Shown: positions 10,985 through 46,681 of the stretch, in pieces
Layout of the letters: every line of letters starts with the position of its first letter
Position numbering within the stretch: the stretch's first letter is position 1
Origin: an uncultured Bacteroidales bacterium
Lineage (GTDB): Bacteria > Bacteroidota > Bacteroidia > Bacteroidales > Paludibacteraceae
Direction of reading: 5' to 3'
DNA: 47,139 nt
Assembly (NCBI GenBank): GCA_945828585.1
Contig: CALZRN010000003.1
Span: 1 to 47,139 of the forward strand
Position numbers and translations under genes: made by a program
The notes under the pieces: model-generated
What the model was told of the DNA's origin: nothing
The model's input: the letters and a program-made list of their open reading frames with translations, nothing else
The model's database searches: none

Positions 10985-11072
10985 CGGCTGCAAAATGGTT
11001 TTATAACGTAGGTGATACCTTTCGTCGTATTTTGCGCATAACCGAAATCGGGTGCAAAGGTACGAAAAAAAA

Positions 11073-13740: not shown

Positions 13741-13784
13741 CAGGCTGAAACGTGTGCACATATAATAAACACATCAAAAATAGT

Positions 13785-29200: not shown

Positions 29201-32200
29201 TCACTTTACGGGCAATCCGATTGGCAACATGAGTCCTTCGAATACCGTATCGAGGAGGCAGGAACCTATAAGGTGATCCTCTATTGGTATAATTATTATG
29301 ACGATTACGGTTCTTCCAATTACAACCCGCCTGCTGCGGTAGATAACTTCGCTATCAGCCGTCTGGCTTGTCCCAAGCCGAAAGGTCTGGCGCTCGCCGA
29401 ATTAGGCGCTGATACAGCTAAGTTCGAATGGGAATCCGCTTCGGACGGTTCGTTCGAGTATGCTTACGCGCGCTTGGCAGACGACATGCCGGAGGAATTC
29501 ACACCGGTGGCTGAGAACTCCGTGGTCCTGTCCGGACTCACTTCGCTGACTGCATACAAGTTCTATCTCCGCAAAGCATGTAGCGAGACCGAGAAGAGCG
29601 ATGTTGTCTCGCTCAACTTCACCACCAAGCAACTTCCTGTGGAAGTAGGTAATGCCTTCTCCGATGACTTCGAAGGGGAGAACGGATGGGTCTTCACCAA
29701 TTCCACCAATCATGGTTGGGTAGTAGGTACAGCTGCTCATAATGGTGAAAACAGCACAAAGGCAATGTATGTGTCAAAGGACAATGGCGAGACTAACTCG
29801 TATAACACCAGCGGTACAAATATTGTTTATGCCTCCAAACTGTTCCATTTCGCAGATGGCGACTACATCTTCCGGTTTGACTGGTTGGGTGATGGCGAAG
29901 GTTCTTCTACGAGCGACTTGGACTATCTGCGTGTGGCCATTGCTCCTGCTTCTGTGAATCTGGTTGCCGGCTCTGTTCCTTCCGGATTCTCCAATACAAG
30001 ACTTCCATCTGGATGGATTGCATTGGACGGCGGTTCGGCTTTGAATAACCAGACTGAGTGGCAGAATGTCATCTCTAATGAAATAAATATTACCGAAGGA
30101 GATTATATCGTTCTATTCGGATGGAAGAATAACTATAGTGGAGGTGATAACCCGGCAGGTGCGATTGATAACTTCTCTATCACGAAGGTTCTCTGCCGGA
30201 AACCGATAGATCTCCAAGTCGTTGCCGATAGTACTACTACCACTTCTGTAGTCCTCACCTGGACACCGAAAGGAACCGAGTCCGACTGGCTTGTTCGCTA
30301 TCGCAAAGTCGGTGCTGAGGCATGGAATACTCCGATAGCTGTAGCACATGTCGATGGTAACGCAGCAGACTCCCTCAAGATCGTGGTGGAGCCGTCAAGC
30401 GCCTATGAGGCACAAGTAGCGGCACTCTGCGACCCGAGCGATCCCGAGAGCGCAAGCGAATACTCCGCTTCGATTACCTTCGCTTCCGGGTGCGATGTCA
30501 TTTCTTCGCTCTCCGAGAATTTCGATGCAGTGGCTTCCGGAACGGGTAATGTATTGCCGCTCTGCTGGAGCTATATCAATACATCCTTGTCTTCGTCCTA
30601 CAACTACTATCCGAGGGTATATAACTCATCGTCCTATGCTAATTCGGGTAGCAACTCGCTGAAGTTCTATTCCTATTATAGTAGTACTACGGACTATGAT
30701 CCGCGTGACCAGTATGCGATCCTGCCTGAGTTCACCGGCGTGAGCGACAAGCGTATCAAACTGAACGCCCGCGCTAACTCCACCGGCTCTTCGTATGACG
30801 CTACCTTCATCGTAGGTGTGATGACCGATCCGGCGGATGCGGCTACTTTCGTCGCGATCGATACCCTGAACCCGACCACCACGGACTATAAGCCGTTCGT
30901 AGTTATGTTCAATACCTATGAAGGCGAAGGTAAGTTCATCGCGATCAAGATGCTGGCGGCTAATTCTGCCAAATCGACTCACGGTCTCTATATTGACGAT
31001 ATCGTCGTAGAGGATATCCCGGCATGTCTGGAAGTAACAGGTCCGATCGCTGTATCGGGTGTTACGAATGATGCGGCCTCCTTCTCTTGGCCTGCTGAAG
31101 AGGATGCGGCATGGAAATACGCTATCGCTCTCGCTTCTGCGGACGAACCTGCTGACGACGAGTTCATCAGTATCGATACTAACTTCGTTGCTATCGAGAG
31201 CGGTCTGACCGACAATACCGACTACATCTTCTATCTCCGCCGTGATTGTGGTAGCAGCATGAGCCCGAGTGTATTGGCTCCGTTCCATACGATCCAGACA
31301 CCGGCTTCTGTTCCGTTCGCTGACAACTTTGAGGAGAGCAACAACTGGTTCTTCGTCAATACTGCTAACGGATGGGTGATCGGTTCCGCTGCGCAGAATA
31401 TCGAGGGTAGTACCAAGGCTATGTATATCTCCAAGGATGGTGCAGCTAACGAATATAGTGTCACAAGTGCTTCTGTAAGTTATGCTGTGAAACGCTTCTC
31501 CATTCCTGCGGGTGGATATGTATTCTCCTATGACTGGAAGGCGTACGGCGAGAGCAACTGTGACTACCTGCGCGTAGCGCTCGTTCCGGATTCGATCGCT
31601 CTCCCGACTTCCTTCAGCTATACTTCCTCGCTGCCAAAAGGATGGATTGCTCTGGATGGCGGCTCGCAACTCAACTTGAGTGCAACTTGGGCTACCTATA
31701 CCAGCGCTGAAATTCATGTAGATGAGGGTACGTATAAAATGGTATTTGTATGGCGTAATAATGGTTCCGTCGGTTCGCAGACCCCGGCTGCTGTTGATAA
31801 CTTCAGCATTACCAAAGTGGACTGTGCTAAACCTGCCGGACTCAAAGTATCGGAGGGTGAGGACGCGGTTACCGTTACCTCTGCACAGGTTGAATGGGCA
31901 AGCGGAAACGCAGGCGCTTGGGTGCTCCAGTATCGTAAGAACTCCGATAAGAACTGGATACAGATCGAAAATGAGATAGCTGAGAATCTGTATGTGCTGA
32001 GCGGACTTCAAGCGGCTTCTACCTACTATGTGCGCGTAGCTGCTGCGTGTGGAGAAAACCTGATTTCTGACTTCAGCGACTCGATTGCGGTCACTACGGA
32101 TTGCGCTGAAATAACGGCATTCCCGTATCGTGAGAACTTCGATGCAATAACCGGTTATTCATATTCGCATGTATTGCCGCTATGCTGGAGCTTTATCAAT

Positions 32201-35200
32201 ACTTGTACGTATGACTATGACTATGATTTCACTATCTATCCTACGGTTAATACGGATCATGAGTTGTATTTCCGTTCGGTATATGAGATTTACGATTATG
32301 ACTACGGCCAGTATTATCCCGCTGATCCGCAAGACCAGTATGCTATCCTGCCGGAGATGAGCGGTATCAATAACCTGCGAATCAAACTGTCGGCAAGAGC
32401 AACGGGTAGCAGTGATGATGCTACGTTCTCAGTAGGCGTAATGACCGATCCGGAGGACGTTTCTACCTTCGTGGAAGTGGCTTCCAAGACACCGGCTTCT
32501 ACTTCCTATGAGTCCTATACGATACCGTTCAGCGGCTATACCGGAGCAGGTAAGTATATCGCGATCAAGATGACGGCTGCAACGTTAACTAGAGACCATG
32601 CGGTGGTCATTGATGAGATCGCGGTGGATGAGATTCCGAGCTGTATAGAGCCTGCGGGCGTCATCGAGGTTTCCAATATCACGGAGCACGCCGCTTCCTT
32701 CGCATGGACCAATGAAGAGGATGCAGCATGGAAGTATGCGGTTGTACTCGCTTCTGCGGAAGAACCTGCGGACGACGAGTTCATCAGTATCGATACCAAC
32801 TTCGTTGCTATCGAGAGCGGTCTGACCGACAATGCCGACTACATCTTCTATCTACGCCGTGATTGCGGTAGCAGCATGAGCCCGAGTCTAACGGCTGCCT
32901 TCAAAACAACCCAGGTGCCGGTTGCTGTTCCGTTCGCGGAGGACTTTGAGGCCGGTAACACATGGGCGCTCATCAATGGTAGCCTGACTAACGCATGGGT
33001 ACATGGTGATGCTGCGTACGCTGGAGAAAGCGGACACGCACTCTATATCTCCAATGATGGTGGTGCTACGAACGCATATACGACCGACGATGCTGCTGCA
33101 ATGGTATATGCTACCAAGCTCATCAACATTGCAGAAGCAGGCAGTTACACCTTCTCCTATGACTGGAAAGCCAATGGAGAAAGCTCGTATGACTTCTTGC
33201 GCGTTGCCCTTGTTCCGAGCTCGGTTGCTTTGAGTGCAGCTACTTCGCGGCCTGCCGGTCTCTCCTCGTCTGACGTTCCGGCTGGCTGGATCGCTCTGGA
33301 TGGAGGCTCCAAACTGAATCTCGATACCGCATGGCAACATGTTTCTCTGGAGATACCTATCGACTCTGTAGGCTTGTACAATGTGGTTCTCGCTTGGCGT
33401 AATGATGGTTCCGGCGGTTCGCAGACCCCGGCTGCTGTTGATAACTTCGCTATTACGAAGGTGCTCTGCTCGCAACCGGCGGCAGTCACGATCTCTGATC
33501 TCACTGCCTCTTCGGCTGCTATCAGCTGGACCAATGGCGCAGAGGGTCAGGATGCATGGCAGATTGCTATCGACACATTACCGACGAACCGCCCGGATAC
33601 TCTGCCTTCTATCAACGATGTAACCGAGAATCCGTATGTGCTGAACGGTCTCGATCCTGAGACCAACTATTATGTATATGTTCGCGCGAACTGCGGTGAC
33701 GAGCAATTCTCGAACTGGTCAGCCCGCGGAACCTTCCGTACGGCTAAGTCTTGCCAGACGCCGGATGATCTCGCAGCTGCTGACATTGATGCTTCTTCGG
33801 CTTTGATCAGCTGGAATACCTACGGACAGACCGGATTCAACCTCCGTTACATCCACGGTACGGATACCGTACTGGTTTCGAACGTAGAGAGCCCGTATGA
33901 GCTCACCGGTCTTGATGCCAATACCTTGTACAAAGTACAGGTACAGGTTCCCTGTGAGCCGGATCAATGGTCTGCATCTCTCAACTTCCGTACAGATTGT
34001 GAGATCTGGTCTATCGCTACGGATGGAAACTATGTAGAGGACTTCGAGTCTTACGCCGGTACGGCTTATGATGTGTATAACAATCAGTTGAGTTGCTGGA
34101 CAATGGGTGGTAATGCAACCCACTTGCCGCACGTAGCAAACTCCGGTTCCTATGGCTATTATCCGCATAGCGGTACCAAAGCACTCTCGTTCTATGGCAG
34201 CGCAAAGAGCGTAAGTTATGCTGTCCTGCCGCAGTTCGCAGAGGATTTGAATGGCTTGCAAATTAGCTTCTGGGCAAGAGTAGAGAACGCATCCTATGGT
34301 ACGATGTCTCTTGGCTATGTGACTGCGGATTCGGTATTCCATCAGTTGACTACAGTTCCATGTACTACTACGACAACAAAGTATGAGTATATATTGGATA
34401 CTGTTCCTGCTGTAGCAGGCCGGTTGGCATTCTGCTGGGTATATACAGGTACTTCCTATTATACTGCCGGTATCGATGATATCGAGGTTGAGTTTATCCC
34501 GACCTGTCTGGCTCCGAAAGCAGTTGCTGCTTCTGATATCTTTGCCCATTCGGCTAAGATCAGCTGGACCAATGGCGCAGAGGGTCAGGATGCATGGCAG
34601 ATCGCTATCGACACATTACCGACGAACCGCCCGGATACGCTGCTCAACATCATCGATGTAACCGAGAATCCGTACGTGCTGAACGATCTCGATCCTGAGA
34701 CACGTTACTACATTTACGTTCGCGCAAACTGTGGTGCCGGTGACTTTAGCAAGTTCTCGGATGGTATCAACTTCAAGACGACCATCGCTTGTCCTGCTCC
34801 TTCCGCTCTCAAGGCTACGCTCACTCCGGGTGACGGTTCTGTGGCTACGCTCAGCTGGAGCGCAGGCGCAGAGGAGAATGCATGGGTAGTAGAGTACAGT
34901 CTCAATGCGGACCTCTCTGACTCGATCGAGGTATTGGCTAACGATACCTTCGTGAACCTGATCGGTCTGACCGCTGAGCAGACCTACTACGCTCGCGTCA
35001 AAGCAGACTGCGGTGAGATGGACGGTAAGAGCCTCTATAGCGCTATCATCTCCTTCAAGCCGACGAACAAGTACGAGCTCCTTATCAACGATGGTGCTAC
35101 TACCAACGGTGTGGTTCCGGTATATGCTTACTGGGCAGACAACTACTCATTAGGTCAGTTCATCGTTCCGGCTGAGCAGTTAGAGGATCTGGTATGGGAT

Positions 35201-36556
35201 TCTATCCAATCTCTGACCTTCTTTGCAAGCATTGACAGCCACGACTTCGGTGCGGCGCAGTTCAAGGCATATGTAGCGGAACTCGAAGAGTCTTCCTTCG
35301 CTTCGGCTACCCTCTATGACTGGAGCGACCTGCACCAGGTAATGGCAGACGCAAGTCTCTCTGTGGCAGACGGCAAGATGGTAGTTACCTTCGATGAGCC
35401 GTATCAATACGAAGGCGGTAACCTCCTGATCGGTATCGAGCAGACGGTTCCGGGTTCCTTCGAGGAGTTCTCCTGGTATGGCGTTACGGCTAACGATGCG
35501 TCGGTCGGAGGATATAAGAACAAGACATCGCTGCAACTCTCTGTTTCGCAGCGTAACTTCCTGCCGAAGATGTTGATCGAATACGCACCGGGTGTAGAGC
35601 CGGCATGTAAGAAACCGGCCGGTCTGGCTGTTTCGGACATCGCTGCCTTCTCCGCTACCGTAGTTTGGAATGAGATAGAAGGTGCTAACTGGGAGTATGC
35701 AGTACTGCCGGCTTCCGAGCCTGCTCCTGCTTCCTTCGAGAACAGTACCAATAACCACTCTGTAGTCCTTGACCAGCTGAGTGAGAATACCGAATACGTA
35801 TTCTATCTCCGTCAAGCATGCGGTGAGGACGGCAACAGTGCAGTTGTTTCGATTGCCTTTACAACGGATATCCGGAAAGCTGAGCTTCCGTTCGACGAGG
35901 ACTTCGAGAATCCGAACTCCGGCTGGAAACTCCTCAATGGTAATCAGCCGAACGCATGGGTAATCGGTAATGCGGCTAATAACGGCGGCGAGAAAGCACT
36001 CTACATCTCCAACGATGGAGGTACTTCCAACTCTTATACCAAGGATGTTCAATCATCTACCTTCGCTTACATCCTGCTTGATTTTGCAGAGGCTGGTGAC
36101 TATGTCGTAGAGTACGATTGGAGAGCTAACGGTGACTACTTGGTAGCGGAAGAATTGGCTATGGATTACATGCGCGTTGCGCTTATCCCGAATGCGGTTG
36201 CTTTTGCTGCCGGAGATGCTGACATTCCTGCCGCTGCGATTGCTCTGGATGAGAACGACGGTCTCTACTTCCAGAACGAATGGCAGCACCTGAGCAAGGA
36301 AGTGAATGTGCCTGCCGGACTCTACAAACTGGCTGTAGCTTGGTTCAACGATAACGATAAAGACTTCGGAGAGGATTATCCGGGTGCTATTGATAATATC
36401 AGCATTCGCGAGAAGGGTGCTCCGACCTCCATCTCCAATACCGGCTTCGGTACAGATGGCAAGGCAATCAAGTTCATCCGCGACGAAAAAGTCTTCATCC
36501 TGGTTAACGGCGTCATCTACGATGCTACCGGACGCAAGGTCGAAGTCGTAAAATAA
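26291..36556 (+). CDS. Giant (3421 aa) secreted modular adhesin with about 10 jelly-roll/cleaved-adhesin-like modules and FN3 modules; short C-terminal tail
   Basis: Signal peptide; repeats of 'NxWxxGxAxxxGxxALYISNDGG', 'YDWKAxGESxxDYLRVALxPxS', 'PAAVDNFxITKxxC', 'VGVMTDPxDxxTFV'; an N-terminal domain (LTVADGTATNEYLPIYG...) reappears near the C-terminus (ELLINDGATTNGVVPVYA...). Confidence 0.88.
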   Translation: MRTFTQKLAFLLVTLLCCTGLQVKADQLTVADGTATNEYLPIYGLYTDTEGTRGQCLYPGDSLSDMSGGSISKLTFYSSATSSSWGATIKVRVGETNASSLSSAFVSDGLTQVYSGVLDISSGTLVVDFSTTPFNYSGGNLIIDFEVVSAGSYSSKSFYGVNSNVTGLGRYVYQSGYSLSESSRDFLPKVTFEYTPGSGSGSGSDCNTVETVEVTDVAARQATINWTGGDGSYAIEYKTASVNRWESVTGLTDNSYVLSNLQPNTSYSVKVYNVCGAESVSNAKSASFTTSCEVVSTFPWSEDFNGRNTGNIAIPCWGNAHIAGPGSSVFTIADGTGGNSTKVGRLPDMDAGNLTLLSLPEMNLPVSARGYEFDIDVYRTSSYATKTNEGLRVYLSASTQLEDTVLLAFIPRVRTLSDLGHGVNAEEADGWYSYEFTLPVKSDPCRIFILGVSEFGNATYFDNIKVKELPSCFKPTDLHEVEGHATKSSIQLDWTANTEETAWKLQYKKASESEWNTVDVDSKPYTLSDLDAFTKYNVQVAADCGGGDISEYGKAISVKTAADVPFAEGFNTYSLSADWKRYAGVLEEVMNGAELEPVSAGWNTGNKTNNVFPDSTYHLYLNIAGETTNHWIVSPMIDMETGYQLSFDLALTAKAGANPTAATAGQQMDDKFAVIIKDDEGWHILRTWDNESTQDYDEINATANGQVIKMDLSEYAGKTIQIAFYGESTVAGGDNNLHISNFRIALPPACEPATQLNITGIGGTFATAVWDNIEGAVWQYCLQANPAADFVPTDFVTMDAGVYTITLETLSENTEYGFFLRRKCGEADFSDIISRSFKTVQTPLILDREHSFSDDFESGNKWVLLNGEETNQWAYGTAVSNGGSRALYISNDAGVSNAMTYDYYSNTSYVYAYKTFNIAEEGVYTFSYDWRNKGGYSYYLRVYLAPLSAELKAGSSTYNLSGLIPLHSASSLYGQSDWQHESFEYRIEEAGTYKVILYWYNYYDDYGSSNYNPPAAVDNFAISRLACPKPKGLALAELGADTAKFEWESASDGSFEYAYARLADDMPEEFTPVAENSVVLSGLTSLTAYKFYLRKACSETEKSDVVSLNFTTKQLPVEVGNAFSDDFEGENGWVFTNSTNHGWVVGTAAHNGENSTKAMYVSKDNGETNSYNTSGTNIVYASKLFHFADGDYIFRFDWLGDGEGSSTSDLDYLRVAIAPASVNLVAGSVPSGFSNTRLPSGWIALDGGSALNNQTEWQNVISNEINITEGDYIVLFGWKNNYSGGDNPAGAIDNFSITKVLCRKPIDLQVVADSTTTTSVVLTWTPKGTESDWLVRYRKVGAEAWNTPIAVAHVDGNAADSLKIVVEPSSAYEAQVAALCDPSDPESASEYSASITFASGCDVISSLSENFDAVASGTGNVLPLCWSYINTSLSSSYNYYPRVYNSSSYANSGSNSLKFYSYYSSTTDYDPRDQYAILPEFTGVSDKRIKLNARANSTGSSYDATFIVGVMTDPADAATFVAIDTLNPTTTDYKPFVVMFNTYEGEGKFIAIKMLAANSAKSTHGLYIDDIVVEDIPACLEVTGPIAVSGVTNDAASFSWPAEEDAAWKYAIALASADEPADDEFISIDTNFVAIESGLTDNTDYIFYLRRDCGSSMSPSVLAPFHTIQTPASVPFADNFEESNNWFFVNTANGWVIGSAAQNIEGSTKAMYISKDGAANEYSVTSASVSYAVKRFSIPAGGYVFSYDWKAYGESNCDYLRVALVPDSIALPTSFSYTSSLPKGWIALDGGSQLNLSATWATYTSAEIHVDEGTYKMVFVWRNNGSVGSQTPAAVDNFSITKVDCAKPAGLKVSEGEDAVTVTSAQVEWASGNAGAWVLQYRKNSDKNWIQIENEIAENLYVLSGLQAASTYYVRVAAACGENLISDFSDSIAVTTDCAEITAFPYRENFDAITGYSYSHVLPLCWSFINTCTYDYDYDFTIYPTVNTDHELYFRSVYEIYDYDYGQYYPADPQDQYAILPEMSGINNLRIKLSARATGSSDDATFSVGVMTDPEDVSTFVEVASKTPASTSYESYTIPFSGYTGAGKYIAIKMTAATLTRDHAVVIDEIAVDEIPSCIEPAGVIEVSNITEHAASFAWTNEEDAAWKYAVVLASAEEPADDEFISIDTNFVAIESGLTDNADYIFYLRRDCGSSMSPSLTAAFKTTQVPVAVPFAEDFEAGNTWALINGSLTNAWVHGDAAYAGESGHALYISNDGGATNAYTTDDAAAMVYATKLINIAEAGSYTFSYDWKANGESSYDFLRVALVPSSVALSAATSRPAGLSSSDVPAGWIALDGGSKLNLDTAWQHVSLEIPIDSVGLYNVVLAWRNDGSGGSQTPAAVDNFAITKVLCSQPAAVTISDLTASSAAISWTNGAEGQDAWQIAIDTLPTNRPDTLPSINDVTENPYVLNGLDPETNYYVYVRANCGDEQFSNWSARGTFRTAKSCQTPDDLAAADIDASSALISWNTYGQTGFNLRYIHGTDTVLVSNVESPYELTGLDANTLYKVQVQVPCEPDQWSASLNFRTDCEIWSIATDGNYVEDFESYAGTAYDVYNNQLSCWTMGGNATHLPHVANSGSYGYYPHSGTKALSFYGSAKSVSYAVLPQFAEDLNGLQISFWARVENASYGTMSLGYVTADSVFHQLTTVPCTTTTTKYEYILDTVPAVAGRLAFCWVYTGTSYYTAGIDDIEVEFIPTCLAPKAVAASDIFAHSAKISWTNGAEGQDAWQIAIDTLPTNRPDTLLNIIDVTENPYVLNDLDPETRYYIYVRANCGAGDFSKFSDGINFKTTIACPAPSALKATLTPGDGSVATLSWSAGAEENAWVVEYSLNADLSDSIEVLANDTFVNLIGLTAEQTYYARVKADCGEMDGKSLYSAIISFKPTNKYELLINDGATTNGVVPVYAYWADNYSLGQFIVPAEQLEDLVWDSIQSLTFFASIDSHDFGAAQFKAYVAELEESSFASATLYDWSDLHQVMADASLSVADGKMVVTFDEPYQYEGGNLLIGIEQTVPGSFEEFSWYGVTANDASVGGYKNKTSLQLSVSQRNFLPKMLIEYAPGVEPACKKPAGLAVSDIAAFSATVVWNEIEGANWEYAVLPASEPAPASFENSTNNHSVVLDQLSENTEYVFYLRQACGEDGNSAVVSIAFTTDIRKAELPFDEDFENPNSGWKLLNGNQPNAWVIGNAANNGGEKALYISNDGGTSNSYTKDVQSSTFAYILLDFAEAGDYVVEYDWRANGDYLVAEELAMDYMRVALIPNAVAFAAGDADIPAAAIALDENDGLYFQNEWQHLSKEVNVPAGLYKLAVAWFNDNDKDFGEDYPGAIDNISIREKGAPTSISNTGFGTDGKAIKFIRDEKVFILVNGVIYDATGRKVEVVK
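26879..26902. repeat. In-frame hexanucleotide GGTTCC x4 (last unit GGTTCG) encoding a Gly-Ser linker
   Basis: ggttccggttccggttccggttcg; protein PGSGSGSGSDC. Confidence 0.9.
31130..31270 (+). repeat. 141-bp near-identical intragenic repeat, copy 1
   Basis: About 6 mismatches by eye versus 32747-32887; encodes ADEPADDEFISIDTNFVAIESGLTDNTDYIFYLRRDCGSSMSPS. Confidence 0.92.
32747..32887 (+). repeat. 141-bp near-identical intragenic repeat, copy 2
   Basis: See 31130-31270; copies are 1617 bp apart. Confidence 0.92.
33523..33600 (+). repeat. 78-bp near-identical intragenic repeat, copy 1
   Basis: One mismatch by eye versus 34561-34638; encodes SWTNGAEGQDAWQIAIDTLPTNRPDT. Confidence 0.93.
34561..34638 (+). 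repeat. 78-bp near-identical intragenic repeat, copy 2
   Basis: See 33523-33600; copies are 1038 bp apart. Confidence 0.93.
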
Positions 36557-36594: not shown

Positions 36595-36601
36595 CTCACG
36601 A

Positions 36602-36630
36602 AGAGAGCTGCCCTCGGGTAGCTCTCTTTG
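36602..36630 (+). terminator. Rho-independent terminator after giant adhesin 2
   Basis: AGAGAGCTGCCC-TC-GGGTAGCTCTCT-TTG. Confidence 0.85.
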
Positions 36631-36634
36631 TTTC

Positions 36635-36753: not shown

Positions 36754-36784
36754 TTGTGTAAGTGGGATTTTTTTTGTAACTTTG
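36754..36784 (+). promoter_or_regulatory. Bacteroidetes-type promoter of the four-gene surface operon
   Basis: TTGTGTAAGTGGGATTTTTTTTGTAACTTTG; 23-nt spacing. Confidence 0.75.
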
Positions 36785-36817
36785 CCGCCCAAATCTGTTT
36801 ATTTGTGGCAGGTAGTA

Positions 36818-37774
36818 GTGAAAAAGATAATATCCATAGTATGTTTGGTGCTCTCGAGCATGTGGGTAAATGCCCATACCAGGCTCACTCCGGAGACCTA
36901 CCATTTCGTATCGTTGCATGCCGATGCGGGATACTCTGCGCTGCTGCATACTATACCGGGTCATGCGCCTTCTGCCGGCATGAATACGAATCTCGGTATA
37001 GACTACCGGCTCTATCATAATGCCTTCCTCTTCTCCATAGGTGTAGAGGGCATGTATGAGCTGAACGCTAATCGTATGGAGGATCACGACGAGGTGATCC
37101 CGATGATCGATACAGAGGGCGATTTCTTTAATATGCACCTCCATGTCGATAAAGCCCGCGACTTGTCGCATATGGTAAACCTCAATATCCCTCTGTTGAT
37201 GGGAGGAGAGTGGGGACGATTCTATTTCATGATAGGTCCTAAGTTCTCGATCAATATGTATGGCGCTACTTCCTCTTCTGCGACGGTTACCACATATGGC
37301 GAATACGATCGCTATTATGACGACTTCTATGACATGCCGAACCACCAGTTCATTACCAGTCTGCCCGTAAAGAGCGATATGTTGAAAATGAAATGGAACT
37401 TTAATATCTTGGCACATATCGAGATAGGAGGACGTATCGGACATATGTTTAAGTATAAGCAGTTCCGCCTCAATCCCGATAAGGTACGTATGTATCTGGC
37501 GGGGTATGTGGATTTCGGTGTACTCAACCTCATTACCGGAAAAGGCGGTGCGCCTGTCTTTGGATACGCAGAGACGGACCACGGAGTGCAGTTCTATTCT
37601 CAACCGTTGTTGCTCAGCAACCTCACGGACGGAGCCACTTTCCGTAATTTCAATATCGGTATCAAATATACCATAGCTTTTGAAGGTAAACAACGTAAGA
37701 AATCGTACATTTACGATTATAACCGCGTGGAACGTAACTACCGGAAACGCGGCGGAAACCAAAATATTCATTAA
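36818..37774 (+). CDS. Outer-membrane beta-barrel protein (paralogue of 11073-12146)
   Basis: GTG start gives MKKIISIVCLVLSSMWVNAHT signal peptide; VNLNIPLLMGGEWGRFYFMIGPKF...TVTTYGEYDRYYDDFYDMPNHQF aligns by eye with the 11073 product. Confidence 0.78.
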   Translation: MKKIISIVCLVLSSMWVNAHTRLTPETYHFVSLHADAGYSALLHTIPGHAPSAGMNTNLGIDYRLYHNAFLFSIGVEGMYELNANRMEDHDEVIPMIDTEGDFFNMHLHVDKARDLSHMVNLNIPLLMGGEWGRFYFMIGPKFSINMYGATSSSATVTTYGEYDRYYDDFYDMPNHQFITSLPVKSDMLKMKWNFNILAHIEIGGRIGHMFKYKQFRLNPDKVRMYLAGYVDFGVLNLITGKGGAPVFGYAETDHGVQFYSQPLLLSNLTDGATFRNFNIGIKYTIAFEGKQRKKSYIYDYNRVERNYRKRGGNQNIH

Positions 37775-37777
37775 TCG

Positions 37778-40006
37778 ATGAAACGTATTATCTATATTAT
37801 CCTGTTGGCAATGGGTTTGGCGGCTGTAGTTCCTATGGCTTCCTTGGTGGATAACAATGTAGCGGCTGTATATGCGGCGGATGCTCGTGCGAAAGCGAAG
37901 GCGCAGCGAGAGAAAGAGAAAGCAAAGCAGCAAAAAGCGCGCGAAAAGGCGAAAGCCAAAGCGGCCAAGGAACGCGAAAAGAAGAAGAAAGAGCAAGCCA
38001 AAGCCGCTGCCCAGAAGCAGAAAGCCCGTGAGAAAGCCAAAGCACAACAGGCGAAAGCAAAGCAGGCGAAATCCTCCTCTGCTTCCTCCAAGCAGTTGGC
38101 TGCTAAATCCGCTGCCCCGAAGGTAGATAATTCCCTCTCGGCTGCGGAGGAGAAAGCCCAATACATGGCGCAGGTAGCCGAGATCGATAAGGCGAATGCG
38201 AAAGCCGAAGCCTATAATAACCGCGACATCACTCACCGCTTGGGCTTCTGGGGACAGGTCGGTTATTCGAACCTCTTCACCTCAGGAATCGCTTTTGACG
38301 ACAAGGCGCAGACCGGTTTCCAAAACAAAGACAAAGGCTTTGTTGGCGGAGGTCTCGGTCTGGGGTATCAACTGCGCTACAAGCAGTTCCTCATGACCGT
38401 TGGCGCAGAGTTCAATACCTATAACTCGATAATGGGCATCTCTAACCAACCGGATGGTTCGATCCTTCGTTCTTTCGGTATGGAGCCATACGCGACGACA
38501 ATGACCTATACCTATAACTTCGCAAAAATGCAGGATCAGCTCATCGGCGGATTTGTACAGGTGCCCCTCCTCTTCGGTATGGAGCTCAAGAAACTGCCGC
38601 TCTTCTGGCAAGCCGGTCTGAAAGCAGGTATCGGCGTCTGGGGCAGTTCCAAGATCTCCGGCACGATGACCACGACGATTCAGGATAACGAGTTGATTGA
38701 CGGCCTCGTGGATATGTATAACCACTCCTTGGTTACCGATCAGGACTTTGATCACCCGGCTACTTCGGTCAAATGGGGACTGAACCTGGCGGCTACGGCG
38801 GAGATCGGTGTGAACCTTGATCAGTGGATCAACGCTTCTCCGCGTCTGCGTCTCTCCCTCTTTGCGGATTACGGCTTCCTCAATGCCCTCTCGTATAAAG
38901 CGGCAGCTCCGGCGTCTGCAAAAGCGCAGACCGATCTGCCGGCTCAGCTGTTAGCTACGGCTAATCCTCTGGATTTCCCGACGAACTCAGCCTTGGCTAC
39001 TTCTTCGGCTGCGAATGCGAAAGTCAATCCCTTCCTCGTGGGTGCGAAGATTGCCGTGTGGTTCGATCTGCCCCGTCCGAAGAAATATACCCGTGACTAT
39101 CCGAAGAAACCGACCCCGCGTATGGGCGTCTATATGTTTGATGAGAACTCTGCGCTCGCTTTGGGTGGCGTAGCGGTTCAGATCACCAATACCGAGTCCG
39201 GCAAGCAGATGCAGAAGAATACCAATCGTAAGGGTCTCCTGCAAGGCCGTTTCGCGCCGGGCGAGTATCGTATCTCGGCTACCAAGAACGGCTATTTCCC
39301 GTCTGACACGGTGCTGCAATCGGTCGAGGAGTTTACGTTTGATACGCTCCGTCTGCCGTTGCGCCGCATCCCGGCTCCGGTCGTTTATACCCTCTGCATG
39401 AACGTGTACGACGAGGAGTCGCATGAGCCGGTAGAGGCAGCTGCGCGTCTCACTGCTCTCACGGATACAGTCGTTCTCTATGCGGCACAGGCTTCCGACG
39501 ACGGTTTCATTGAGACGCCGCTCACCGAAGGTGACTACATCGCGCACCTCACCGCTGCGGGATATATGCCGAAGGATGATACGATTCATTTCGTACGCGA
39601 TACCGCGGATATCTTCCTCCGCCATATCAAGGAGGGTATCAAGGTGAAGATCGAGAACCTCTTCTTTGCTACCAACAAGACGGTTATCCTGCCTACTTCG
39701 GAGCAAGCGATGTCTGACTTGGCATCCTTCCTCATCCAGAACCCGTCTGTCACTATCCATATCACCGGACATACCGATGCGGTGGGTTCGGACGAAGCGA
39801 ACCAGATCCTCTCTGAGGGTCGTGCTAACGCCGTACGTAATGACCTCATCAAGCGTGGCGTAGCCGCAGAGCGTATGACCGCCGAAGGTAAGGGTGAGCG
39901 CGAGCACGTAGCCGATAACGATACCGAGGAGGGACGTCAGCTCAACCGTCGTGTAGAGTTCACCATCACCGGTACCGGAGACGAAGACATCCAGCAAGTC
40001 TTCTGA
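37778..40006 (+). CDS. Outer-membrane barrel + carboxypeptidase-regulatory-like + OmpA C-terminal domain protein with Lys/Ala-rich N-terminal segment
   Basis: ARAKAKAQREKEKAKQQKAREKAKAKAAKEREKKKKEQAKA...; barrel FVQVPLLFGMELKKLPLFWQAGLKAGIG; NLFFATNKTVILPTSEQAMSDLASFLIQNPSVTIHITGHTDAVGSDEANQILSEGRANAVRNDLIKRGV (OmpA). Confidence 0.9.
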   Translation: MKRIIYIILLAMGLAAVVPMASLVDNNVAAVYAADARAKAKAQREKEKAKQQKAREKAKAKAAKEREKKKKEQAKAAAQKQKAREKAKAQQAKAKQAKSSSASSKQLAAKSAAPKVDNSLSAAEEKAQYMAQVAEIDKANAKAEAYNNRDITHRLGFWGQVGYSNLFTSGIAFDDKAQTGFQNKDKGFVGGGLGLGYQLRYKQFLMTVGAEFNTYNSIMGISNQPDGSILRSFGMEPYATTMTYTYNFAKMQDQLIGGFVQVPLLFGMELKKLPLFWQAGLKAGIGVWGSSKISGTMTTTIQDNELIDGLVDMYNHSLVTDQDFDHPATSVKWGLNLAATAEIGVNLDQWINASPRLRLSLFADYGFLNALSYKAAAPASAKAQTDLPAQLLATANPLDFPTNSALATSSAANAKVNPFLVGAKIAVWFDLPRPKKYTRDYPKKPTPRMGVYMFDENSALALGGVAVQITNTESGKQMQKNTNRKGLLQGRFAPGEYRISATKNGYFPSDTVLQSVEEFTFDTLRLPLRRIPAPVVYTLCMNVYDEESHEPVEAAARLTALTDTVVLYAAQASDDGFIETPLTEGDYIAHLTAAGYMPKDDTIHFVRDTADIFLRHIKEGIKVKIENLFFATNKTVILPTSEQAMSDLASFLIQNPSVTIHITGHTDAVGSDEANQILSEGRANAVRNDLIKRGVAAERMTAEGKGEREHVADNDTEEGRQLNRRVEFTITGTGDEDIQQVF

Positions 40007-40009
40007 GAA

Positions 40010-40041
40010 ATACCGTAATACCGTAATAACGTAATAACGAA
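40010..40041. repeat. Four-unit, period-8 array, consensus ATAMCGTA
   Basis: ATACCGTA ATACCGTA ATAACGTA ATAACGAA between the OmpA-gene stop and the next ATG. Confidence 0.93.
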
Positions 40042-40045
40042 TCTT

Positions 40046-43000
40046 ATGAAGAGACTACTCTTCTTACATATAATCCTGCTCCTCTGCACTCTCTCAAGGG
40101 CGCAGAATGTGGCTACCGGTTTCCCTTATGAATGTGGGTTCGAGGAAAGCGAGGATCTGTCTGCATGGAACCTGAACGTTCAGGCTCCAGCTAACGCAAC
40201 CGATAAATGGATCTTCGGTACGGACGCGCATAGTGCAGGGCGGCGATCCATGTATATCTCTGCTTATGGAGACGGGCTCAATTATGGCGGAAAGAAGAAT
40301 ATCACCATTTCGTATTTGCGCTATAAGTTCCCGACTTCTACCCAGAACCAGAAATATGATATCAGTTTTGACTGGAAGGGACAGGGGGATTCTACGATCT
40401 CCAAATTGTACGTCATGGTTTGTCTGGAGGACTATTTTCTTAACAACCCTGCCAACAATCCTCGAAACATCAATAATATCCTTGCGCCCTATAATACCGG
40501 TCGTTTGTCTAACCAGACGATTAATGCTTGTGAGCAATTAGGCGAGTCTGGTGAGAGATTTGTATGTGGTAGTGAGGCATGGCAGAATATTTCGCTTACC
40601 AACGAGGTTAGTGTGCTTGCTAATCGTTCGACGATGAACTTTGCCATTGTCTTCATTTGGGTAAACGAGAATCAGCAGGACTCTCTTGGCCGCACCTCCA
40701 TAGCGATTGATAATGTCCAGATCAACTCGGCATCTATCAAGAAACCGACCAACGTCGCTGTCTATCCGCAATGTGAGGATTCTTCCCTTTTGGTTACATG
40801 GGAGAGCGGCCTGCCTACCTTTGACATTGAGTATCGCAAGGTGGGTGAAGAGAATTGGGCGCATGGACGTTCCGGTATCTCGGACGGTATGGAAGGCTTT
40901 GTGCGCGAAGACGGTACGAACTGTTCGTATGCACTCAAGCCTATTTTGGAAGGCGCGTACGATGTGCGCATACGAGGAAGACATGACGAACTGCAGACCA
41001 ACTATGTATATGTCTCTCAGGTTCTGGTGTATTGCCCGGATAACCACTGCGTCAACTATATCAATCTGGATGGACCGGATGTCGTCTGCACGACCGGTTT
41101 CTTCCCTGACTATTACGGCAATAACGAGACGCCCTATGATGTTATCGGTAAGGTGGATTTCGGTCCGGATGCGGTGGAGAGTCGGCATACAATACATGTC
41201 GATCCTACGGAGGTTGATCCCCGTACGGATAGTCTGTTAAAGACCGTGCCGGAAGGATCGCTCGCTTCTGTACGGCTCGGTAACTGGAACTGGGGTGGTG
41301 AAGCGGAGTCCGTCACCTATACCATCCATGTGGACTCGTTCACCCAGGGTATCTTGCTCGTCAAGTATGCCGTGGTCTTTGAGGACCCGGGGCATGAAGA
41401 TGAGCCGGAGTTTGATCTGGAGATATTGAAACCCGATGGAACGCCCTTCGAGGATCTCTGTGGTCAGGCGAAGTTTACCTATTCCGATGCGGTCGAAGAT
41501 GGTTGGAATATGTCTTCGAATAACCATGTGGCTTGGAAAGACTGGACGACCGTCGGTGTACCTATCATGCAGTACCACGGTCAGGATATCAAAGTCCGCT
41601 TCACGACCATGGACTGCGGAATGGGTGGTCACTTCGGCTATGCATACTTCACCGTCGATTGCGCCAACGCGCATATAGAAACAGAGAACTGCGGTAGCGA
41701 TGCGCATGTTACCTGTGTCGCTCCGGAGGGTTTCCGGTACCTGTGGTATAAGGACGATGATATCACTAATGTCGTGGCTACGACCAGAACCGTTACCGTC
41801 GATGCTTCCGGTGGTAAATATACCTGCCGTGCAATCTTTATAGAAGAGGATGATTGTTACTTTGAGATCAGTACCGTTTCCGATCCTCGTTTCCCGGTGG
41901 CGGAATATACCTATGAACCGGTATTTGCGAACTGCTCCAGCAAGATCCGATTCACCAATACGTCTCATGTGATGACGATTCTGGAAGACGGCTCGGAGAA
42001 CCATACTGCCGAGAAATGTAGTGAGTCCGAATGGGTCTTCCGCAGCCTCACTTCGTCGAGGACTCCGCTCAGAACAACCATCTGGAATCCCGAGTACCTG
42101 TGCGATGATACGGGTGACTCAGTAGAGGTGACGGTTACCTCATATATCGGTGCCGATAACTCCTGCTTCAACACCCGTGTGGATACGATTGTCATGCCCA
42201 ATATTATTCCGGAGCCGACGGAGATCCGCCGTGTCATTTGCCCGGAGGAGACAGTAAAGTTCGGTAATGACGAGATAGGGTATAAATACTTTAATTCCGA
42301 TACGGTGTATTCGGATCACTTTACGAACTTTGCCGGCTGTGATTCCGTCTCTACGCTGTACCTGAAAGTACATCCCGTGCCTGAAGAGAAGCATATCCAT
42401 GAGGCCATCTGCTCCGACCAGGCGGTGATCATCAATGGTGTTCGCTATAATCAGCCTCTCGATGACTACCCCATTATGCTCAAGACGGTGAACGGCTGTG
42501 ATAGTGCCATCTATCTGACTTTGACGGTCAATACGCGTCTGGAAGCGACGATTCCTCAGCCGGCTTATGCGTGTGCCGATGATGGCCAGTTCTATATATC
42601 CTATGATATACATGCGGGCGTGTACGATAGTCTTGAGATCCGCTTCTCTACCCCGGAATTGAGAGATACGATGATTTATGACCGGAATGTCAACTCTATC
42701 GCTATCCCCTATCCGGAGACCATCACCCCGGGACAATATATGGCGTCCCTCTATTTCTACCAGTTCTGTTGCGGTGTCCGCAAGGAGGAGAGGTTGATCG
42801 AGGTGCGGTATAGCAGCTCGATCGTGGAGCAGAAATGGAATGATGTCTTGACGATGCTCGCGCCCAAATACAACGGCGGATATGAGTTCACGGCGTTCCA
42901 GTGGTATAAGGATAACATGCCTATACCCGGCGAGAACCACTCTTATCTCTACCAGCCGCTGGATTATGAGTCGGAATACTACGTAGTAGCGACCCGCAAG

Positions 43001-43279
43001 GATGGTGTCTCTATCGCTACCTGTCCTATCCAACCTGTCTATAGAGAGCAGCAGTCAGAGTATCCGTCTATCGTCAAGGTCGGTCAGCGTGTACCGATGT
43101 ATATGGCTAAACCGGCGGACATATGGTATTATACCGTCTCCGGACAACTCTATTCTACCACCTCCCTTATGGAGGGATATAACACCCTTGAGGTGCCTTC
43201 GCTGCCCGGCGTTTATATCCTCAAATCGGTCAATAGAGACGGCGAGACAAAAGCCCAAGTGATGATTGTTGAACAATAA
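40046..43279 (+). CDS. T9SS cargo protein: jelly-roll module, FN3-like, 'SVRLGNW' domain, 'GCDS' repeats, full-length type A-like sorting domain
   Basis: Signal peptide MKRLLFLHIILLLCTLSRAQ; SRHTIHVDPTEVDPRTD...ASVRLGNWNWGGEAES...WKDWTTVGVP...HFGYAYFTVDC; C-term ...YTVSGQLYST...EVPSLPGVYILKSVNRDGETKAQVMIVEQ. Confidence 0.88.
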   Translation: MKRLLFLHIILLLCTLSRAQNVATGFPYECGFEESEDLSAWNLNVQAPANATDKWIFGTDAHSAGRRSMYISAYGDGLNYGGKKNITISYLRYKFPTSTQNQKYDISFDWKGQGDSTISKLYVMVCLEDYFLNNPANNPRNINNILAPYNTGRLSNQTINACEQLGESGERFVCGSEAWQNISLTNEVSVLANRSTMNFAIVFIWVNENQQDSLGRTSIAIDNVQINSASIKKPTNVAVYPQCEDSSLLVTWESGLPTFDIEYRKVGEENWAHGRSGISDGMEGFVREDGTNCSYALKPILEGAYDVRIRGRHDELQTNYVYVSQVLVYCPDNHCVNYINLDGPDVVCTTGFFPDYYGNNETPYDVIGKVDFGPDAVESRHTIHVDPTEVDPRTDSLLKTVPEGSLASVRLGNWNWGGEAESVTYTIHVDSFTQGILLVKYAVVFEDPGHEDEPEFDLEILKPDGTPFEDLCGQAKFTYSDAVEDGWNMSSNNHVAWKDWTTVGVPIMQYHGQDIKVRFTTMDCGMGGHFGYAYFTVDCANAHIETENCGSDAHVTCVAPEGFRYLWYKDDDITNVVATTRTVTVDASGGKYTCRAIFIEEDDCYFEISTVSDPRFPVAEYTYEPVFANCSSKIRFTNTSHVMTILEDGSENHTAEKCSESEWVFRSLTSSRTPLRTTIWNPEYLCDDTGDSVEVTVTSYIGADNSCFNTRVDTIVMPNIIPEPTEIRRVICPEETVKFGNDEIGYKYFNSDTVYSDHFTNFAGCDSVSTLYLKVHPVPEEKHIHEAICSDQAVIINGVRYNQPLDDYPIMLKTVNGCDSAIYLTLTVNTRLEATIPQPAYACADDGQFYISYDIHAGVYDSLEIRFSTPELRDTMIYDRNVNSIAIPYPETITPGQYMASLYFYQFCCGVRKEERLIEVRYSSSIVEQKWNDVLTMLAPKYNGGYEFTAFQWYKDNMPIPGENHSYLYQPLDYESEYYVVATRKDGVSIATCPIQPVYREQQSEYPSIVKVGQRVPMYMAKPADIWYYTVSGQLYSTTSLMEGYNTLEVPSLPGVYILKSVNRDGETKAQVMIVEQ

Positions 43280-43297
43280 GTAGAAACTCACATACCT

Positions 43298-46200
43298 ATG
43301 AATATAAATCGATTAGTTAGTGTTTTGATAGTAGCTTCCCTTTCCTTGGCAGCACCTGTCTATGCGGTTAGAAACTATTCTTGTAACTTTGAGACGCAGG
43401 CTGAGCGCAGTCGCTGGGTTCTGAACCCCGCTGCGAATTCTTCTGTGCTCAGCAAGTTGAAGAATAAGTGGTATATAGGTGCACCGGGAAATAACGATAG
43501 AAATGGCCAGTATGGTTTGTTCATTTCGGACGATAACGGTCAATCTGCGCATTATACCAACACCGCCGGTTGTTGGGTATATGCCTATGATACCATTTCG
43601 CTCGAGGCTATGAACGGTGACTATACGGTATATTTCGACTATTGTGTCATGGCGAATATGGCAAGTAAGTTTGACGGACTCTATATGCTTTGGATTCCGG
43701 AGTCTGTCAAGATCATGTCCATCCCTTCCAGTCCCGGTAAGGCAGAAGATATCCCGGAGGAATGTCTTCCGTATTTCATTCCTCTTCAGCCTCTGGCGAA
43801 TACGGATTACCTGAGCGGTACGGCTACTTGGAAACAGTGTGCGGCTAAGATTCCCGGTTCTAAATGCGACGGTACGCCCCATCGTCTGGTATTCATCTGG
43901 ACGAACGGCTCCTCTGTTCCTCAGCAACCGGGTGCGATGATCGATAATATAGTGATTACCGATGTGCCCCTTTGTGACGCGCCGACCAATCCTGTTATAG
44001 CACGCTCGGGTGATACTGTGAAAATCTCCTGGTCAGGGAACGCATCCTCCTACGAGGTTAGCGCCTATTCCTATGATGCGGACTCCTGGGCGGGACCGAA
44101 GATCGTGCAGGGTAACCAGACTACCTTCGCGAATCCCGCTGCCGGGCAGACGGATTTTATCATTCGTGCTGTCTGCGACGATGGTAACTTTAGTCTCAAG
44201 ACCATTACATCCAAACTCATCTATTATCCGGATCAGATGTGTGTAGATTATCTTAATCTCGATAATGCCGTTTGCTACGTAAATAACTCCTCTCCATCCA
44301 GTTCAGAGACCTTTGAGGATTTCGTAGTACGCAGGGTGGATAATGGACCGGCTCAGAAGAGCAGCCGCCATACCGTCCATTTCGATCGTACGGAAACGGA
44401 GCCGCGTACCGGTGGATTGGCGAAGACCATTCCCGACGGAGAGTTCGCTTCTGTACGTCTGGGTAACTGGGATTCCAATGATGAGGCGGAGCGAATTGAG
44501 TTTACCTTCCTCGTGGATACGATCAAGTATCCGGTTCTCCTGCTTAAGTATATGCCGCTTTTGGAGGCACCGGGACATGAGGATTTCGAGAATCCCCGCT
44601 TCAAACTCGATATGTTAGTAGGTGGTAAAACGATCGGTCGTTGCGGTCAGGCGGACTTTAACGCCAATAATGTCATGAAGGACGGCGCGCTTCAGCCCGA
44701 AGCTGTGGCACAAGGATGGCATATCACCCCCAAAGAAATAGCACAGACATCTGATGATGTGGTTTGGAAAGAATGGACGACCGTAGGTGTCAACCTCCGG
44801 GATGGTAACTATCAGGGCAAACAACTGACAGTTCGCCTTACTACGCACGACTGTACTTTCTCTGTTCACTCAGGATATGCCTATTTCACGCTCGGCTGCT
44901 CCGATGGTAAACTGAAGGATATGAAGTGCGGACAGGTCAATCCGGATTTCAAAGCCCCGGACGGCTTCTTGTATCGCTGGGCGTATGCTTCGGATGAGGT
45001 ACACCGCCGCGCTAACGGCTCCTTCCCAGAGCAATACGTACGTGGCAGAAACCAGATTTATAATGCCGGCGAACACGATGATCACCTCTATGTGGTCGAT
45101 TGTATGTTCGTGCAGGATACCACCTGTTACTTCTCCCTATATGCTTCGACTCTGGCTACCAATCCTATTTCTGAAATGGCAAAGCCGCATATCATCCGTT
45201 CCTGCCGCGATAATATCTATAAGGTGGAGTTTGACGCTTCGCCTTCTTGGGTGCAGGAGATCAACCACGTGACGGGTGATACATCGGTTTCTAAGAATTA
45301 TCATATTGAGCGTTACGAGTGGAATATAGAGGGCCTGCCGGCGGGCTACTCCAACTGGTCCGATGAGGTCAAGCCGACCTTTAACTTCCCGGTAGAGGGT
45401 GGGCATTTCATCGTTAATCTCCGTACGCAATGCGGTACCTGCGAGGATGTCCTGACCTATCATCTCTATATGGATCCGCTCTCCACGACGCGTGATACCA
45501 TCGTGGATATCCTCTGCGACGATGCCCGTATCAATGGATATGTATGGAAGGAGAAACCCGACACGCTCTATCATAACTACGGCTTGGATTCCATCATCCT
45601 CTATAATGAAGCTACCTCTTGCGACTCGATCATCTACCTCAAGCTCATTGAGCCGATTCGTATCTTCGAGGACACGATGATCATGCAAACCTCGCTGCCG
45701 TTCACCTATCACGGACGCGTTTACCCGGAGGGTACCGTTTCTATGATCGATACTGTTCCTTCGCCTACTAACTGCGACTCGACTTACGTCCTCAATCTGG
45801 AGATCTACGAACCGCTGCAGGCTTCCATGCCTTCGGCATATATCCTCTGTGAGGGAGACGATATGCTGAGACTGGTGTACACCATCTCTCGTGGGCGCAG
45901 CGTGCGCTATTCCTATGGTTTTGAGGAGTCTGGCATGCCGTCGCTTGACCCCGTAGCGGAGATGCAGAAGAAAGGCGATTATGCCATCTCTATACCGATT
46001 GACGAGACGATTATTCCTGATGTCTATAACGGTTTCGTGCTCTTGGAGGACGCGCTGCCACAATGTAACGTCCGCTTGCCCTTCGTCCTCACGATGCAGT
46101 ATGCCTCTACGGTCATTGCCCAGCGTTGGAATGACGTCTTGGCGATCAAGAATGCAGATTTCAACGGCGGTTACCGCTTTGATTCCGTCCAGTGGTATGT

Positions 46201-46567
46201 CTCCGGCGCGCCAATTGAAGGAGCTACGGACTTCAACTACTACGTGGGTGAAGGAAAACAACTGCGTTTCGGCGAAGAGTATCAGGCGCTGCTGACGCGT
46301 GAGGATGGTGTCAAACTGTTCACTTGCGCCTTTGTTCCGGCTCCTGTTCCTGCCGAGGTGATGGATATGCCGTCGCTTGTGCCGATGGGACAAACGATTT
46401 CCGTTCCGGGTCAGGGTGTTGCGCAGTGGGTGGATATGTTAGGACGTACCCATCATACCGAAGTCTTCAATAACTCCGATATCTATGCGCCGGCTGCCGC
46501 AGGTAGCTACCTGCTCATCCTGCAAAAACAGGACAACCGCTCCGCACATCATATAGTAGTGAAATAA
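43298..46567 (+). CDS. T9SS cargo protein, tandem paralogue of 40046-43279
   Basis: SRHTVHFDRTETEPRTG...ASVRLGNWDSNDEAER...WKEWTTVGVN...HSGYAYFTLGC; C-term ...WVDMLGRTHHTEVFNNSDIYAPAAAGSYLLILQKQDNRSAHHIVVK. Confidence 0.88.
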   Translation: MNINRLVSVLIVASLSLAAPVYAVRNYSCNFETQAERSRWVLNPAANSSVLSKLKNKWYIGAPGNNDRNGQYGLFISDDNGQSAHYTNTAGCWVYAYDTISLEAMNGDYTVYFDYCVMANMASKFDGLYMLWIPESVKIMSIPSSPGKAEDIPEECLPYFIPLQPLANTDYLSGTATWKQCAAKIPGSKCDGTPHRLVFIWTNGSSVPQQPGAMIDNIVITDVPLCDAPTNPVIARSGDTVKISWSGNASSYEVSAYSYDADSWAGPKIVQGNQTTFANPAAGQTDFIIRAVCDDGNFSLKTITSKLIYYPDQMCVDYLNLDNAVCYVNNSSPSSSETFEDFVVRRVDNGPAQKSSRHTVHFDRTETEPRTGGLAKTIPDGEFASVRLGNWDSNDEAERIEFTFLVDTIKYPVLLLKYMPLLEAPGHEDFENPRFKLDMLVGGKTIGRCGQADFNANNVMKDGALQPEAVAQGWHITPKEIAQTSDDVVWKEWTTVGVNLRDGNYQGKQLTVRLTTHDCTFSVHSGYAYFTLGCSDGKLKDMKCGQVNPDFKAPDGFLYRWAYASDEVHRRANGSFPEQYVRGRNQIYNAGEHDDHLYVVDCMFVQDTTCYFSLYASTLATNPISEMAKPHIIRSCRDNIYKVEFDASPSWVQEINHVTGDTSVSKNYHIERYEWNIEGLPAGYSNWSDEVKPTFNFPVEGGHFIVNLRTQCGTCEDVLTYHLYMDPLSTTRDTIVDILCDDARINGYVWKEKPDTLYHNYGLDSIILYNEATSCDSIIYLKLIEPIRIFEDTMIMQTSLPFTYHGRVYPEGTVSMIDTVPSPTNCDSTYVLNLEIYEPLQASMPSAYILCEGDDMLRLVYTISRGRSVRYSYGFEESGMPSLDPVAEMQKKGDYAISIPIDETIIPDVYNGFVLLEDALPQCNVRLPFVLTMQYASTVIAQRWNDVLAIKNADFNGGYRFDSVQWYVSGAPIEGATDFNYYVGEGKQLRFGEEYQALLTREDGVKLFTCAFVPAPVPAEVMDMPSLVPMGQTISVPGQGVAQWVDMLGRTHHTEVFNNSDIYAPAAAGSYLLILQKQDNRSAHHIVVK

Positions 46568-46641
46568 CTAGTACCATAGGAACCTAGTACCCTAGGGACC
46601 TAGGACTCTAGTACCCGAGGTCCCCTAATACTTCGGACTCC
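46568..46641. repeat. About nine-unit, period-8 array, consensus CTAGTACC
   Basis: CTAGTACC ATAGGAAC CTAGTACC CTAGGGAC CTAGGACT CTAGTACC CGAGGTCC CCTAATAC TTCGGACT CC; begins immediately after TAA (46565-46567). Confidence 0.9.
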
Positions 46642-46647
46642 AGAAAT

Positions 46648-46681
46648 AGCCGGTTATCCATTTGGGTATCCGGCTTTTCTT
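46648..46681 (+). terminator. Rho-independent terminator of the surface operon
   Basis: AGCCGGTTATCC-attt-GGGTATCCGGCT-TTTCTTT. Confidence 0.8.

Follow-up and report, generated by a model that had tools for sequence, protein, structure and literature searches.

The window, by which we mean the whole stretch of 47,139 nt analysed here, derives from a 1.83-Mb MAG and carries four genes on the same strand whose coordinates and spacing (gaps of 3, 39 and 18 nt) agree with those given in an earlier note on this DNA. Gene 1 (36818-37774, +) starts with GTG and encodes a free outer-membrane barrel of 318 aa with about 10 predicted strands. Gene 2 (37778-40006, +) encodes a 742-aa protein in which a barrel homologous to gene 1 is joined to a CRD-like region and an OmpA domain, and genes 3 (40046-43279, +; 1077 aa) and 4 (43298-46567, +; 1089 aa) encode T9SS cargo. 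At the position proposed for the promoter we found a Bacteroidota promoter (36754-36784, +) with TTG at -33, a spacer of N20 and TAACTTTG at -7. The TTG-N20-TAACTTTG pattern occurs at 11 sites in the window against 0.32 expected; scanning for sigma-70 promoters tells nothing about Bacteroidota sequences. Promoter conservation was scored in the 23 orthologous loci with a called downstream OmpA-barrel gene, and in all of them (23/23) the pattern was present as a single site within about 1.4 kb 5′ of that gene, at a near-constant distance of about 64 nt ahead of the barrel start. The terminator placed at 46648 was likewise recovered, as an intrinsic hairpin (46648-46680, +; -20.1 kcal/mol, z -5.7) that was found by RNA folding and was not picked up by a consensus terminator scanner.

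Upstream of the four genes lies a giant Fn3-repeat protein of 3421 aa (26291-36556, +) with the short CTD-like tail VFILVNGVIYDATGRKVEVVK. An intrinsic-terminator-like hairpin (36598-36633, +; RNA fold -26.8 kcal/mol, z -6.8) separates its gene from the operon, and the giant is a separate transcription unit. The window holds a second giant protein (16037-25996, 3319 aa), with choice-of-anchor J domains.

The named relatives are rumen and gut MAGs labelled as Paludibacteraceae or Bacteroidales bacterium. As would be expected of a conserved neighbourhood, the order giant, barrel, barrel/OmpA, cargo, cargo was kept in the orthologous loci with enough flanking DNA, and most loci have a giant with a similar CTD-like tail at the same position. 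In five loci (L038, L040, L042, L044 and L047) the simple gene caller dropped one gene because of an antisense frame or frameshift, and in two others (L053 and L056) the frame of the giant protein is broken. Of the 41 genus genomes, 11 have a close orthologue of gene 2, and there are several further copies that have diverged more and are complete or nearly so. Judged from the sequences, by the conserved promoter position and gene order in orthologous loci, genes 1 to 4 are a real operon.

The only Pfam match of gene 1 was to a broad family, PF13568 (OMP_b-brl_2; 6e-9), and no NCBIfam model matched it. Its predicted fold has about 10 strands, a number that is provisional at a model pLDDT of 75 and low TM-scores. 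OpcA and OmpT were among the best of the nearest solved structures, with FadL entries far lower, again at low TM-scores, and a Foldseek comparison of the barrel with viral models returned nothing beyond generic small barrels. Gene 1 and the barrel of gene 2 are homologous (1.8e-14; about 20-24% identity).

SprA, PorV, PorP and PorK are all encoded in the genome, with PorP adjoining PorK, and the true PorP scores 213 bits to TIGR03519. Neither gene 1 nor its relatives matched the PorP, SprF or PorV models, and none of 28 barrel-family members had a PorP match in NCBIfam. When the barrel profile was compared with the genome's own PorP, the hhalign probability was about 1%, and it gave no alignment with the genome's own PorV either. 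Membership of the barrels in PorP/SprF, which had already been doubted on first reading, is ruled out by the family models, the profile comparison and the CTD type of the cargo described below. Family-model searches also gave no transporter-family match for either barrel, which removes assignment to an unrelated transport family as an objection.

Gene 2 had been described as a fusion of a barrel with OmpA, and this reading was confirmed. The protein consists, in order, of a signal peptide, a Lys/Ala-rich helix (residues ~35-130), the barrel (~147-448), a CRD-like region (461-510 and beyond) and an OmpA-type peptidoglycan-binding domain (629-724; 8e-20). Residues 428-597 of the PorE model aligned to residues 542-708 of gene 2 (4.6e-23), and the C-terminal part also matches the crystal structure of the PorE C-domain (6top), so that gene 2 has the CRD followed by an OmpA-type peptidoglycan-binding domain that characterises PorE. 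The TPR, beta-propeller and lipoprotein features of PorE are absent from gene 2, the N-terminal part of which is the Lys/Ala-rich helix and barrel, and the cut-off of the full PorE model was not reached (81/600 bits). The HTD and RANAV positions align with those of Omp38/AbOmpA (3td3), with Asp and Arg kept; we take these residues of AbOmpA to be the ligand residues of the DAP-binding (peptidoglycan) site. With this PorE-like half, gene 2 resembles a fused PorP-PorE. The Lys/Ala-rich helix (37870-38120, about 95 residues), between signal peptide and barrel, is kept in orthologues, and at this length it could reach across much of the periplasm.

Genes 3 and 4 are paralogues (7e-78, 28% identity), and their designation as T9SS cargo was upheld. 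The N-termini of both are hydrophobic by inspection and qualify as Sec signal peptides. Gene 3 has N-terminal adhesin-like domains, an Ig-like module (826-1003) and a type A CTD (~1008-1076), and the corresponding module and CTD of gene 4 lie at 834-1020 and ~1021-1089. The C-terminal ~70 residues of gene 3 are predicted to form a seven-strand domain after a flexible, low-confidence linker, which is the pattern of a type A CTD. Among 52 tails of the cargo family, 38 matched TIGR04183 (type A) and none matched TIGR04131 (type B); the gene 3 tail itself falls under the curated TIGR04183 cut-off (17.6 against 23 bits). With 0/52 TIGR04131 matches and a seven-strand CTD predicted, a type B CTD is ruled out for genes 3 and 4. 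Their predicted CTDs are type A-like T9SS signals, unlike the type B signal of SprB and PG1035. Common to the cargo family is an Ig-like module directly before the CTD, with the aligned pattern QRWNDVL...NGGY.F..YQWY.NG..I.GAT. Foldseek searches with the cargo C-terminus gave general Ig/Fn3 neighbours alone, of which the grappling-hook protein GhpA was the best, and pointed to no specific function. In some cargo paralogues a short CTD-like tail replaces the usual CTD, a form known from Prevotella intermedia (PMC11969387). In one orthologous locus (L040; G022:C34:96096-102490) the reading frame of gene 3 is interrupted around residue 850, and the remaining C-terminal portion is in frame with gene 4; the resulting ORF of 1309 aa is an assembly error, a frameshift or a real fusion.

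We then considered the pairing of barrel and cargo across the order. Since choosing loci by cargo could create an adjacency artefact, 198 Bacteroidales genomes were searched twice, with the barrel alone and with the module alone. The genus paralogue loci used for gene order were partly picked by cargo hits, and only the genus count and the out-of-genus counts given here are free of this bias. Within the genus, 38 of 70 barrels (25 genomes) have same-strand module cargo within 2.5 kb, against about 0.7% per barrel by chance. About 46 of 102 genus module hits have no detected barrel nearby, and the module is therefore not strictly dependent on an adjacent barrel. Outside the genus, module cargo lies directly upstream of 19/27 barrels, and a barrel lies directly downstream of 17/20 strong module hits that cover the Ig part and of 0/6 hits that cover the N-terminal part only. 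Nine of the out-of-genus loci that were fetched had both genes called, and in each of the nine, cargo and barrel directly adjoin (gaps of -13 to +65 nt). This adjacency across families indicates that the pair is an order-wide, patchily distributed unit, and the unit in the window, as far as gene content and homology can tell, belongs to it. Barrel divergence correlates with the divergence of the module (r 0.69) and of the CTD (r 0.63) in a mirror-tree test, which we count as weak support because co-inheritance alone predicts a correlation and shorter regions give noisier distances. No account of a pair of this barrel type with type A cargo was found among open-access papers, which is weak evidence of novelty.

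When the C-terminal tails of the barrels were compared, two forms could be distinguished. A CxC/CxxC tail is present in 27 of the 29 free paralogue barrels of the genus, one of the two exceptions being cut by a contig end. The same twin-Cys motif was found in 0/48 OmpA-fused or otherwise extended genus barrels, 0/22 gene 1 orthologue rows (gene 1 included) and 0/8 out-of-genus barrels. Twin-Cys tail and OmpA fusion are mutually exclusive in the genus barrels. The periplasmic tail of gene 1 is basic (...KSYIYDYNRVERNYRKRGGNQNIH) and has SYIY where the alignment places CVMC in a paralogue. In a maximum-likelihood tree, the clade of gene 1 (P0001; 100/100) is nested within twin-Cys barrels, which makes a loss of its cysteines the most likely history, and almost all OmpA-fused barrels of the genus form one clade (100/95). 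In SprF and PorG, a tail of the twin-Cys kind forms a disulfide link with GldK/PorK (Nat Commun 2025, PMC12635249). PorK of the genome has a KGC motif with Cys328, a candidate equivalent of the reference reactive cysteine. Beyond the lost cysteines, an RKRGGNQ-like basic motif is kept in the tails of gene 1 orthologues (37700-37771), and a similar RRG stretch occurs in some twin-Cys paralogues, on which grounds the gene 1 tail probably still binds something. Elsewhere in the window, a relative of gene 1 with the twin-Cys tail CVIC (11052-12146, +; 364 aa) has no cargo beside it and lies close to a gene for a GldJ-like lipoprotein (13752-15383, +). Similar cargo-less barrels occur in other genomes of the genus, and the window copy is a candidate PorG-like or track-linked barrel.

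We consider the operon, with a probability of roughly 0.55, to be a dedicated barrel-cargo surface-display unit in a static, peptidoglycan-tethered form that would work like PorP-PorE-PG1035 with another barrel family and CTD class. Genes 3 and 4 would be adhesin-like proteins exported by the T9SS through their type A signal and the PorV/PorU route. Genes 1 and 2 would be dedicated outer-membrane partners that retain these products at the surface, most likely by binding the Ig-like module beside the CTD and possibly the CTD too. The single barrel-CRD-OmpA chain of gene 2 would tie the complex to peptidoglycan, one polypeptide doing the job of PorP plus PorE. In the twin-Cys lineage, the tail probably couples by disulfide to the PorK/GldK ring or track, and because gene 1 lost both cysteines, we take the window copy as the probable static, wall-tethered version. 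What the sequences themselves show is gene content and order, promoter conservation, barrel homology, the type A CTD, the order-wide adjacency of cargo and barrel, cysteine loss and the OmpA ligand residues, and barrel-cargo units have precedents (PMC9143113, PMC12618676, PMC12635249). The earlier note had proposed a candidate cargo-anchoring unit, a proposal that is partly supported and that stands up to the checks of neighbourhood conservation and transporter matches, while anchoring of the cargo by the barrels is what we infer by analogy and from the order of the genes and the domains they encode. Cleavage of the CTD and linkage of the cargo to LPS are the normal course for type A signals. 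For cargo handled in this way a barrel anchor would be redundant, which counts against anchoring.

We also put forward, tentatively and as a possibility we would not yet lean on, that the family is a second class of dedicated outer-membrane partners, independent of PorP/SprF, which serves type A T9SS cargo. Such a class would comprise an energy-chain-coupled twin-Cys form, which would be PorK/GldK-linked and might move surface proteins in those rumen Bacteroidales where a GldJ-like protein is encoded as well, and a static barrel-CRD-OmpA form, in which the window operon would be fixed.

Three other readings of the barrels were weighed. It is rather unlikely, in our estimate, that they are dedicated export carriers (shuttles) like SprF, taking the cargo from SprA instead of PorV by reading CTD plus module and then staying as its anchor. 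The order of cargo then barrel, often with a 4-nt overlap, is the sprB-sprF arrangement, the paralogues have an SprF-like twin-Cys tail, and the barrel divergence tracks that of the CTD as well as that of the module; type B signals, too, reach beyond the CTD (PMC12618676). However, the CTDs here are type A by model matches (38/52 TIGR04183, none TIGR04131) and by the predicted seven-strand fold, the genome encodes PorV, and the barrels resemble neither PorP nor PorV by profile and look 10-stranded, unlike the 14-stranded FadL type, the last point being taken from a moderate-confidence model (pLDDT 75). We regard it as improbable that the barrels are uptake or receptor channels served by the secreted proteins as surface binding subunits, as SusD serves SusC: one-to-one gene pairing, adhesin/Ig-like cargo and the rumen habitat would suit such a role, but the barrels are small, with about 10 strands and no plug or TonB box, the OmpA fusion and twin-Cys tails suggest anchoring or force coupling, and no glycan enzymes adjoin them in the window. 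That they are general envelope-stability OmpA-type proteins merely sharing an operon with cargo accords with the OmpA-like build of gene 2 and the breadth of OMP_b-brl_2, but is very improbable, given that the adjacency to one particular cargo module holds in both directions across the order, far above chance, and that genomes have several lineage-specific copies (at nine places in that of the window) instead of a housekeeping single copy.

The surface-display reading points to a hitherto undescribed mechanism by which type 9-secreted proteins would be held on the cell surface. To our knowledge, the current view is that all type A T9SS cargo share the carrier PorV and are LPS-anchored, with dedicated barrels for type B only. 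If the reading is true, the pairing of type A cargo with another barrel family across the order would break this division between type A and type B. The split between twin-Cys and OmpA-fused members of one family would also offer a natural test of a recent proposal, in which the GldK/PorK disulfide linkage drives or moves surface proteins, and the pairing would help to annotate large surface proteins of rumen Bacteroidales that are still uncharacterised.

Finally, we compared the operon with known systems. In F. johnsoniae and P. gingivalis, PorP/SprF barrels hold type B cargo, with PorE-like proteins as the presumed link between static complexes and peptidoglycan (PMC9143113, PMC12618676). 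PorP-PorE-PG1035 and the F. johnsoniae operons of type B cargo, SprF-like and PorE-like genes have the same parts list as the window operon; with both it shares T9SS cargo, an outer-membrane barrel, a CRD-OmpA protein and the proposed static wall anchoring. It differs in that its barrel family shows no profile relationship with the genome's own PorP, its OmpA half is fused to a barrel and not to the TPR/propeller of PorE, and its cargo CTD is type A. Moreover, the genome has its own PorP and the genus already has a separate type B cargo (40/41 genomes, single copy in all but one, mostly ~415-475 aa), much as P. gingivalis has PG1035 as its single type B cargo. The comparison with PorP/SprF beside SprB made in the earlier note therefore holds for the layout and not for membership, the cargo being type A and not type B. 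Like SprB-SprF, the gliding adhesin and carrier of F. johnsoniae, the units are paralogous and place the cargo gene before the barrel gene, and the window barrel's paralogues share the twin-Cys C-tail of SprF, but barrel family and CTD type are different and the window copy has OmpA and no cysteines. The paralogues also resemble PorG, the 8-stranded T9SS barrel disulfide-linked to GldK/PorK, in being small with cysteines in the periplasmic C-tail, and are set apart from it by description, with about 10 predicted strands, ~300 aa, multiple copies and a link to cargo. Gene 2 shares with OmpA/OprF-type porins an N-terminal barrel and a C-terminal OmpA domain, and is distinguished from them by its Lys/Ala-rich N-terminal helix, its CRD-like insert, its place in a T9SS-cargo operon and the homology of its barrel to gene 1.
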